A stretch of DNA of 64,000 bases from Closterium sp. NIES-65. Taxonomy: Eukaryota > Streptophyta > Zygnematophyceae > Desmidiales > Closteriaceae. The stretch lies in assembly GCA_948144175.1 (NCBI GenBank), contig CANXME010001290.1:634501-698500 (forward strand). Reading direction: 5' to 3'. This document shows, piece by piece, positions 27,858 to 64,000 of this stretch; within the stretch, counting starts at the first letter, position 1, and each line of letters begins with the position of its first letter. The notes under the pieces were generated by a model. It had not been told where the DNA came from. It worked only from the letters and a program-made list of their open reading frames with translations, and made no database searches. The position numbers and the translations under genes are program-made.

Positions 27858-28264
27858 TATGCACATGCAGGCCATTGCCGCTGCGCTCAGTCCTAGGCCT
27901 CCCAGTGTGGGCGGGTGTCAGTAGAGCTGCACTGTGAGATCCCCGATTGATCCTTGGGGGGTTACAAGCATGTTAGCCTGGGGGGTTTTGGATGCACTGA
28001 CCCGCTAATGAAACAAGCCCTTTTATCCCAATGGTCTAGTGGTTGGGATACTGACATGGTATCAGAGCGAAGGTCCCGGGTTTGAATCCCGGTGTATGCA
28101 CTTCGGGCATCCCAGTGCGGGGGGGGTGTCAGAGGTCCACTGGTGATCCCCGATTGATCGTAGGGAAGGGTTACAGGCACGTTGGCCTGGGGGGTTATGG
28201 GCGCACTGACCCGCTACTTAAGAAGCCGTTTTATCCCAGTGGTCTAGTGGCTGGGATTCTGACA
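27858..28264 (+). mobile_element. Tandem TRIM-like array (partial internal, LTR, internal, LTR)
   Basis: 27858-27915 is a TRIM internal segment lacking its own left LTR. 27916-28056 is an LTR (TGTCAGTAGAGC to GGGATACTGACA). 28057-28126 is the internal region with primer site TGGTATCAGAGC. 28127-28264 is a second LTR. The same unit structure is at 63676-64000. The internal region is only 70-95 bp and non-coding, which fits a terminal-repeat retrotransposon in miniature. The second LTR leads straight into the primer site and leader of copia F. Left flank ACACA (27853-27857) repeats at 39871-39875, so array, F and M share one insertion duplication. Confidence 0.8.
28024..28093 (+). other. tRNA-like structure across the TRIM LTR/primer-site junction (copy 1)
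   Basis: A-box-like TGGTCTAGTGG inside the LTR end and B-box-like GGTTTGAATCC 20-odd bases after it. Three hairpins: ATCCCAA/TTGGGAT, CTGA/TCAG around CATGGTA (this loop holds the LTR end and the start of the primer site), and CCGGG/CCCGG around TTTGAAT (a perfect T-arm shape). The acceptor stem is not complementary, so it is not a functional tRNA gene. Confidence 0.6.
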
Positions 28265-28312
28265 TTGTATAGAGCGGGTTCCCTAGTGGGACCGTTTTTT
28301 TTTAAAGGCCCA
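28265..28312 (+). promoter_or_regulatory. Primer site, hairpin and GGCCCACC box of copia F
   Basis: TTGTATAGAGC, then stem GGTTCCC / GGGACC around TAGT, a T run, then AAAGGCCCACC. Matches the arrangement in A, C, G and I, with one G.U pair. Confidence 0.65.
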
Positions 28313-28968
28313 CCACCTGAATTTTTTTTTTCCTGCCCTGCCCGAAGCGCGCCTCGGGCTCTACCCTACGGCCGCCCTTAGCGGCCTGCCCTGACGACGC
28401 GTCCCTTAGAGGCCCACCCTGCTGCCCGCGGCCCTTAGCGGCTCGCCCGCCCCTTGGTCACGGCCCGCCCGCCCCTCTCCTTCATCGCGGCCATGCTCGC
28501 CCCTTCGACGCGGCCCTGCCCGCCCCTTCGACGCGGCCCTACCCGCCCCTTCGACGCGGCCCTGCCCGCCCCTTTCGACGCGGCCCTGCCCGCCCCTTCG
28601 TCGTGGCCCCTACCCTGCAGCAGCAGCCGTCGCCCGCCCCTGCTGCCGCCGTCGTGCCTCCAGCCGCCGGAGCGACCGTCGCTACTGTCGCTGCTGCGGC
28701 CCCGCCGTCGCGGCCCCGCCCACCTGCCTTGGCGCGGCCCTGTCCTGCCGCCGAGCCGCGGCCCTGTCCTGCCGCCGAGCCACGGCCCTGCCGTGCCGCC
28801 TTGTCGCAGCCCTTACTCCGCTGGTGCGCCACGGCCCTGCCCCACCAGTCGCGGCCTCTCCCCTCCCGCCACTGGTAAGAGCACCACCGCACTCGCACCG
28901 CTCTACGGAGCCGCGCCGCCCCTGCAAGTCACGCTGCTCCTGCTGCTACTGCTGCTGCCCCTGCAGTC
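28313..28968 (+). repeat. GC-rich leader of copia F
   Basis: No gene. Repeats of CCCGCCCCTTCGACGCGGCCCTG type at about 28490-28605, then CTGCCGCCGAGCCGCGGCC repeats near 28745-28800. Ends with CACTGGTAAGAGCACC and an acceptor-like CCCCTGCAG immediately before the gag ATG. Confidence 0.7.
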
Positions 28969-63254: not shown

Positions 63255-63675
63255 AAAATACATGGTAACCTGCTGCCAGGCGCGCTCGGGCAGTGGTATC
63301 GGCTGCAACTGACCCGCCTTTCTTTTTCGCGAGCTATTCATCACCTTACATGTAGGACACGAGCCCACGTGGTGTTGTACATCAGTCAACAGCTCCGGCC
63401 AGTAGTAATACCGCTGCAGTTGCTGTTGCATTCTTTCTACCCCAAAGTGACCCGAGGTAATCCCGTCGTGTGCCTCTAGCAGTAACAGTTCCCTCAGTAG
63501 TGAGTACGCGGGTACCCAAATGCAGTTGGTGCTTGTTTTTACGTAATAGACGCCTTTTGCTTCTGCTAGTTGCTGTGAATTTCCAGTCGTGAGAAATGGG
63601 TTGGTACTGTATCCATGGGTGAATTGGCCTGCTAACAGTGGGTTGGTTTGGGCGAGTGGGATGGCGTGGAGTTGG
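63255..63675 (-). pseudogene. gypsy J post-RNase H region and integrase zinc-binding domain
   Basis: On the minus strand: a stretch equivalent to L-A-Q-T-N-P...F-T-H-G-Y (63630-63660, homologous to D at 27650), then G-H-F-G-V-E-R-M, Y-Y-W-P-E-L and S-C-P-T-C-K (63340-63440), the HHCC domain. Continues into the core at 56191. Cut at the other end by a TRIM. Confidence 0.85.
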
Positions 63676-64000
63676 TGTCAGTAGATCTGCACTGTGGATG
63701 CCCGATTGATCCTGGAGAGGGTTACAGGCGCGTTCGCTTGGGGGGTTATGGGCGCACTGACCCGCTACTGAAACAAGCCTTTTATCCCAATGGTCTAGTG
63801 GTTGGGATTCTGACATGGTATCAGAGCGGTCTCGGGTTCGATTCCCGATGTATGCACATGTAGGCCGGTGCCGCTGTGCTTAGTCTTCGGCCTCTCAGTG
63901 TGGGGGGGTGTCAGTAGATCTGCACTGTGGATGCCCGATTGATCCTGGAGAGGGTTATAGGCGCGTTCGCCTGGGGGGTTATGGGCGCACTGACCCGCTA
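63676..64000 (+). mobile_element. Tandem TRIM-like element, right edge of window
   Basis: LTR 63676-63815 (140 bp, TGTCAGTAGATC to GGGATTCTGACA), internal 63816-63908 (93 bp), second LTR from 63909, cut by the window end. Primer site TGGTATCAGAGC at 63816, purine tract GTGTGGGGGGG before the second LTR. The two LTRs differ at only about two positions over the visible 92 bp. No coding capacity. Inserted in gypsy J. Confidence 0.85.
63785..63852 (+). other. tRNA-like structure at the TRIM LTR/primer-site junction (copy 2)
   Basis: A box TGGTCTAGTGG, and B box GGTTCGATTCC, a full match to the tRNA consensus. Hairpins ATCCCAA/TTGGGAT, TCTGA/TCAGA with 7-base loop CATGGTA, and TCGGG/CCCGA with loop TTCGATT. 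The LTR end (TGACA) and primer site (TGGTATCAG) form the anticodon-arm analogue. No matching acceptor stem. Confidence 0.65.

Follow-up and report, generated by a model that had tools for sequence, protein, structure and literature searches.

A TRIM was identified at position 63676 of the window, by which we mean the whole stretch of 64,000 nucleotides of Closterium sp. NIES-65 DNA analysed here. We propose, with a probability of about two in three, that the RNA of this TRIM is made by RNA polymerase III (Pol III) from a type-2 promoter split by the LTR border, as a unit-length RNA served in trans by proteins of Copia-type elements. The feature to be explained is the layout of this promoter and not a tRNA fold.

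The element is 374 bp long and consists of two LTRs, a primer site (PBS) for initiator methionine tRNA (iMet), a 93-bp interior, a polypurine tract (PPT) and a 5-bp TSD, all read on the plus strand. The left copy of the TSD, GTTGG, was found at 63671..63675, and the same 5 bases directly follow the second LTR in the adjoining stretch L151. The 5' LTR of 140 bp (63676..63815) begins with TGTCAG and ends with TCTGACA. It is followed by the PBS TGGTATCAGAGC (63816..63827), by the remaining interior with the PPT GGGGGGG (63902..63908), and by the 3' LTR (63909..64000), which runs past the end of the window; continued into the adjoining stretch, this LTR measures 141 bp and ends in TCTGACA, then GTTGG. 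Two LTRs, a PBS, a PPT, a length of less than 1 kb and a short TSD make the element a TRIM, as the sequence-only reading had called it. A SINE was also considered as its identity and was ruled out by the LTRs, PBS, PPT and 5-bp TSDs. In all six iMet genes read in the same genome, some of which have similar flanks, the 3' 12 nt of the CCA-completed tRNA are exactly complementary to the PBS, and a 13th base also fits in five of the six. The surroundings of the element look like a Gypsy-type fragment, judging from the letters. A second TRIM is located at 27916..28264 on the plus strand (LTR 27916-28056, interior 28057-28126, LTR 28127-28264) and is preceded by a partial interior of a further unit.

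The A box TGGTCTAGTGG lies within the LTR (63791..63801, plus strand) and the B box GGTTCGATTCC in the interior past the PBS (63835..63845, plus strand), as had first been read. The B box starts 20 bp past the LTR end and is the sole match at up to one mismatch on both strands of the whole 64-kb window. From start to start the two boxes are 44 nt apart, which is tRNA spacing. A TTTT, the predicted Pol III terminator when it stands in the 3' LTR, precedes the A box at 63780..63783 (plus strand), and the equivalent TTTT of the second LTR lies just beyond the window end. The earlier remark that a TTTT stands just before the next A box was thus borne out in both LTRs, and such a layout would permit a unit-length Pol III RNA.

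In the proposed mechanism, a type-2 (tRNA-gene) promoter would be formed by the A box in U5, followed by the iMet primer site and by the B box in the short interior. Pol III would begin transcription near CAAGCCC, roughly 17 nt upstream of the A box. The predicted start region, CAAGCC at 63774..63779 on the plus strand, was placed from tRNA-gene geometry and would also be the start of a short R; a CAA motif is a feature of plant tRNA genes. The transcript would extend through the PBS, the B box, the PPT and U3, and the TTTT that precedes the A box of the 3' LTR by 7 nt would end it. The predicted RNA has a length of about 215-245 nt and a terminal repeat R of about 10 nt (AAGCCCTTTT). The first strand would be primed by iMet tRNA, and copying and integration would be carried out by proteins of Copia-type elements with the same PBS. 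The full promoter is confined to complete elements, because the B box is absent from the 3' LTR and from solo LTRs. If the proposal is true, solo LTRs and 3' LTRs would be promoter-dead and each new complete copy would rebuild its promoter wholly from its own RNA, so that a Pol III promoter need not lie within the LTR. It would also explain the short terminal repeat and the complete RNA of tiny LTR elements that are nearly without LTR regulatory sequence, and TRIMs with a tRNA-type promoter would then be known from an algal relative of land plants as well.

The genome (874 Mb in 2400 contigs) was searched with three patterns. The exact A-N20-50-B pattern, the PBS..B box pattern (GGTTCRANNCC) and the LTR U3 pattern with up to 3 mismatches gave 1022, 3423 and 11,228 matches, respectively, which may include both haplotypes or duplicated segments, and the reversed-pattern control gave 0 in each case. 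Among the A..B matches listed, four are tRNA-Gly-like genes and not TRIMs. The combination of PBS and B box was also encountered elsewhere, with one match in a viral contig and two in bacterial genomes; these were rejected, as their flanks are unlike the TRIM element.

Since searches with A..B and PBS..B select the boxes, retention of the boxes was counted in a U3-selected set of 32 LTRs in 20 stretches. These are 20 of 25 listed places, all exact U3 matches, with previously fetched places left out, and the counts were made by eye; omitting the places fetched for their boxes should have lowered the box figures. The A box was exact in 25 of the 32 LTRs and within one mismatch in all 32, and the TTTT was present in 30. 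The pattern GGTTCRANNCC was kept in 9/13 copies with a TRIM interior, and a fixed B-box letter was lost in 4/13. Decay of the boxes in most copies, which had been named as an observation that would speak against the tRNA mimic first proposed, was not seen: both boxes are kept in most copies read. A variant A box of 10 nt, TGGTTAGTGG, occurs in L063, L067, L069, L088, L089, L098 and L100, and in several of these copies the bracketing stem has CTGGG as its 3' strand; L063 also has CTGGG after GTGA.

Parsing gave 85 left-LTR-plus-interior units (21 of subfamily A, 22 of B, 38 of C and 4 unplaced). In the A-C comparison (150 pairs), mean identity was 0.838, 0.933, 0.968, 0.564, 0.917 and 0.611 for U3, R-U5, PBS, spacer, B-box arm and 3' interior with PPT, respectively, where the parsing anchors, which leave little room for change in R-U5, PBS and B-box arm, somewhat raise the identities of these three. 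Inside subfamily C, under the same anchors, the corresponding values were 0.936, 0.943, 0.965, 0.785, 0.947 and 0.873. The TRIM family is young, so that recent descent could account for much of the conservation, and conservation of U5 and PBS is expected for reverse transcription regardless.

These observations bear on an ordinary Pol II TRIM whose boxes are the relic of an old tRNA or SINE capture, carried along because reverse transcription requires U5 and PBS. The youth of the family agrees with such a relic, and so do the changes in the U5 hairpin, which mostly resemble neutral decay: in 34 distinct LTR hairpins, 15 cells are broken, 5 are two-sided and 5 are wobble. However, the B box lies outside U5 and PBS and is retained while the adjoining spacer and the 3' interior diverge between subfamilies, the boxes stand at tRNA spacing, and internal T4 runs are rarer than in shuffles. 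We consider the relic unlikely. An internal TTTT was present in 7/84 units, compared with 23% of dinucleotide and 46% of mononucleotide shuffles, and an internal TTT in 41/84 units, compared with 83% and 94%, respectively. L083 and L021 carry TTCT or TTGT in both LTRs and have a perfect TSD, i.e., they did transpose; they can be reconciled with a T4 stop only if the R of daughter copies comes from the 5' LTR. The motif TATA[AT]A was found in 1/184 TRIM LTRs and in 0/8 Copia-type LTRs, a comparison that is not informative. L063, whose LTR is cut exactly at the TTTT, and L070, joined just upstream of CAAGCCC, could be taken for traces of RNA ends; this was set aside, as nested insertion could explain both.

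The core of the TRIM was aligned with the tRNA-Gly-like gene L001 of the same genome, "tRNA-Gly-like" meaning the closest of the one isotype compared apart from iMet, and scored 54, while the maxima were 32 among 1000 shuffled cores and 35 among 1000 shuffled elements. The similarity is concentrated in CCAnTGGTCTAGTGGT and CGGGTTCGATTCCCG. All copies have a single ancestry in common, as would be the case for a chance resemblance in one ancestor that was then amplified. Yet the two boxes, their spacing, the flanking tRNA-Gly letters and the T-run all fit together, and the L001 score was reached by 0/1000 shuffled cores and 0/1000 shuffled elements, which makes chance scarcely credible. In the tRNA-Gly-like genes themselves (L001, about 1490-1566 on the minus strand, and three more) the anticodon region exceeds the usual length by several nt and is variable between copies, as if it held a short intron.

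The sequence-only reading had gone further and described a tRNA mimic built over the LTR border. Its anticodon-arm-like hairpin TCTGA-CATGGTA-TCAGA, with 5 bp and a 7-nt loop, was confirmed at 63809..63825 (plus strand), and the LTR end (63815) falls in its loop. The T-arm-like TCGGG-TTCGATT-CCCGA is perfect in the window copy (63832..63848, plus strand). The letters reported for other window copies were as described, with ATCCCAG/CTGGGAT at 28230-28264 and CCGGG/CCCGG at 28024-28093. The copy ending at 28264 is without a B box because a Copia-type leader follows its LTR. In Rfam, the tRNA model matched the window core at 18.1 bits against a gathering threshold of 29, over model positions 7-64 only and without the acceptor stem (E 0.38, all families, 401 bases). 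In a scan of 20 loci, L001 scored 53.1 bits, and a tRNA match (up to E 10) was absent from the remaining 19, all of them TRIM loci. The Infernal-type check that had been suggested thus returned the window core below the threshold and none of these 19 TRIM loci. ARAGORN (bacterial code) reported 0 tRNAs in the 64-kb window. A functional tRNA gene was ruled out by the sub-threshold Rfam score, the missing acceptor stem and the ARAGORN result.

Pairing was followed in an alignment of 71 of 74 distinct cores; L075, L078 and L079, with a foreign or mixed LTR, were left out. The U5 hairpin ATCCCAA / TTGGGAT (63784..63808, plus strand), whose loop is the A box, was paired in 99.0% of cells, and its stem is not a tRNA D-arm. 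Pair 17-29 of this hairpin was AU in 55 cores, GC in 10, GU in 2 and other in 4, and pair 15-31 was CG in 69 and UA in 1, so that two of its seven pairs show a two-sided change. The ten GC copies at pair 17-29, on different subfamily backgrounds and with two duplicates (L088, L089), represent one to a few events. Only this hairpin has believable two-sided changes; the anticodon-like hairpin showed none in the 71 cores. In the T-arm, pair 64-80 was UG in 65/71; two cores, the window copy and L022, have UA, and one, at window 28015, has CG. Because this pair is mostly UG, the difference between U-A and C-G amounts to two one-sided steps. The second T-arm pair, 65-79, was unpaired in 16/71 cores (14 CCCAG and 2 CCGAG), and we infer that CCCAG in the 14 copies fits a CpG change; the only two-sided cell of this pair is in L066, whose B box lost a base.

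The RNAalifold consensus kept the A-box hairpin, lacked the T-arm and the anticodon-like arm, and had a covariation term of -0.33; the anticodon-like hairpin appeared in the fold of one copy. In the shuffled-column control, the number of cells with a two-sided change was reached in 0/500 shuffles, a result that relatedness alone can produce, and the numbers of pairs with a two-sided change and of further pair types were reached in 63/500 and 334/500, respectively. Directed screens for compensation were run genome-wide with the exact 11-nt A box required. With the third 5' stem base changed, 49 copies were found and listed, and 0 were compensated; with the fifth changed, there were 138 copies, and 2 compensated ones (identical) among the 100 listed. 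Stem changes are probably mostly decay after insertion. The paired changes, which had been taken as proof that RNA pairing was kept, come down to one widespread polymorphism and one rare haplotype. The covariation evidence for kept pairing is thin, and there may be selection on active copies. The fold of the 244-nt unit, with a z of -1.09, was not special.

A true tRNA mimic folding over the border, which might serve to attract the primer or tRNA-binding proteins, would account for the anticodon-like 5/7 hairpin and the T-arm of the window copy, and the 99.0% pairing of the A-box hairpin, with its two-sided changes and the 0/500 for such cells, could be counted in its favour. It is highly improbable nonetheless, in view of the missing acceptor stem, the 18.1 bits, a consensus fold that retains a non-tRNA hairpin and neither of the two tRNA-like arms, the T-arm pair open in 16/71 cores, and the two screens.

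In Ty1, additional boxes of the element pair with the primer. The B-box-like stretch could likewise provide extra pairing to the T-arm of the primer tRNA and be no promoter at all. Compared with the majority iMet T-arm in reverse complement, it agrees in 11/14 letters, and T-arms are similar to their own reverse complements. The energy of the iMet duplex was below that of most shuffles, but 74 and 85 of 300 equalled it. The alignment itself was equalled by 535/2000 shuffles for the minority iMet and by 158 and 516 of 2000 for the majority iMet, whereas the sense match to tRNA-Gly was reached by 0/2000. Primer pairing also leaves the A box unexplained, and we regard it as very unlikely.

The split Pol III promoter was compared with known systems. 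A tRNA-like TRIM promoter as such is already known from Helenus, described by Kojima (2024, PMC10886601) as TRIMs with tRNA-derived sequence and a tRNA-type promoter inside the LTR; TRIMp3 is named there as the wider class of TRIMs with a Pol III promoter, into which the Closterium TRIM would fit by its sequence. The split at the LTR border is a new layout against this account. Helenus resembles the Closterium TRIM in being miniature, with A and B boxes, PBS and PPT, a similar size and a fold that is mostly no functional tRNA, and Helenus of plants and fungi has the 5-bp TSD in common with it. Helenus-1_SMo of Selaginella has an LTR of 120 and an interior of 85 bp (PMC10886601), and the Closterium TRIM is set apart from it by that description and not by its letters. 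In Helenus the tRNA-like sequence is in the LTR and every LTR has a promoter, while in the Closterium TRIM the B box lies past the PBS and only complete elements have one.

Cassandra is a TRIM with a 5S rRNA promoter in the LTR (PMC7215508, PMC10853983). The idea of a parallel solution to Cassandra, suggested from the letters, is already in print as Helenus/TRIMp3 (PMC10886601). Cassandra and the Closterium TRIM share the idea of a Pol III promoter, the methionine PBS TGGTATCAGAGC, tandem LTR-interior arrays, and a short terminal repeat from start and stop in two LTRs, which for the Closterium TRIM is predicted and for Cassandra is given as 18 bp in PMC10886601. The 5S promoter of Cassandra is wholly in the LTR, whereas the tRNA-type promoter of the Closterium TRIM would lie over the border, and a 5S match was absent from the Rfam scans of the window and 20 loci, which sets the element apart from Cassandra. 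SMART / FRetro129 (PMC3281118), presented as the smallest plant LTR element, is similar in having a Copia-type partner proposed. The terms "polymerase III" and "tRNA" are absent from the main text of that paper and of PMC4717578. The tRNA-derived SINEs have the internal A/B-box promoter in common with the Closterium TRIM, which adds two LTRs, PBS, PPT and 5-bp TSDs. Within the full-text literature searched, outside which most subscription papers fall, no title or abstract on a border-split TRIM promoter or on such an element in Closterium was found.

As to transposition, chains with at least two LTRs (91 loci) had a perfect 5-bp TSD in 61/81 and 4 of 5 bases in 4/81; the 81 include the window element as a miss, as it is cut by the window, and after removal of duplicates the independent perfect-TSD chains are at most 58/78. 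L067, L088 and L089, three places on contig C53, have one common pair of flanks and are not independent; L082 and L091 (C47, C57) as well as L079 and L101 (both C66) have common flanks, as duplicated segments or haplotypes. Single-LTR chains had a TSD in 0/13 cases, and most of them belong to composites. Four three-LTR arrays (L022, L036, L065, L103) have one perfect TSD. In L022, L103 and L072 (TSD TAGCT, matching by eye), interiors or LTRs from different TRIM subfamilies stand inside one TSD. One insertion with later sister exchange would not yield such mixtures, and these arrays were probably assembled before integration.

The candidate helpers are Copia-type elements. The long ORF at 50992-54057 matches proteins of Closterium species, and the best 120 of 7956 matches all bear PF07727, which we take to be the Copia-type reverse transcriptase domain; the label Copia-type for the partners rests on window ORFs beside LTRs of the same kind. 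Copia-type LTRs in the window and in the loci are followed by the same PBS as the TRIM or a near one. At 28265..28330 (plus strand), a Copia-type leader (TTGTATAGAGCGGG at its start) is joined to a TRIM LTR at the PBS, and a leader of the same type follows its own LTR at window 16440. In a survey by eye of 49 junctions in 40 loci selected by PBS..B box, the TRIM U5 was missing upstream in 11/49; ten have another LTR family ending at the PBS (in L046, one of these, the final 12 bases are TRIM-like), and one has a TRIM U3 with a foreign U5 (L034/L072). In the reverse direction, a TRIM LTR runs through the PBS into foreign sequence at window 28264/28265 and in L070, L071, L073, L076 and L078. The same was seen in 7/19 loci read from a 35-match search, the other 12 being TRIMs with a changed base; in one of the seven, L150, the change to Copia-like coding sequence falls on a short word common to both.

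Three composites, L077, L072 (TAGCT, as above) and L140/L152, show a matching TSD. In L077, GTATC surrounds Copia-type LTR - TRIM interior - TRIM LTR (by eye). L140/L152 has the order Copia-type LTR - TRIM interior - TRIM LTR - Copia-type interior - Copia-type LTR; TACTG flanks it at either end by eye, and about 3 kb between the two stretches is unread. Of the composites that continue into a Copia-type interior, L140 is the one followed to its far end. The TSD of L074 fits 4 of 5 bases, L075 has none, and the upstream stretch of L079 is without a matching LTR start. The PBS composites fit intermolecular plus-strand transfer at the shared PBS, which suggests co-packaging, or they may have arisen when DNA copies recombined at the PBS. 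Sabot and Schulman (2007, PMC1950507) described template-switch complexes, composites from reverse transcription with one TSD. Those complexes switch in R between similar elements, whereas in the Closterium composites unlike LTR families meet exactly at the PBS. The Helenus paper links TRIM and autonomous partner through the primer sites that they share, the length of the TSD and, in one pair, a similar interior (PMC10886601); the PBS composites are genomic evidence on which autonomous element carries the TRIM. For the combined reading of the letters, in which the border-split Pol III promoter goes with an R set by the Pol III start and the T4 stop and with swapping of ends with Copia-type elements through strand transfer at the PBS, we see the balance as about even. 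In the Copia-type family at window 16440 and 28265, the PBS is one base shorter (TGGTATAGAGC / TTGTATAGAGC) than TGGTATCAGAGC.
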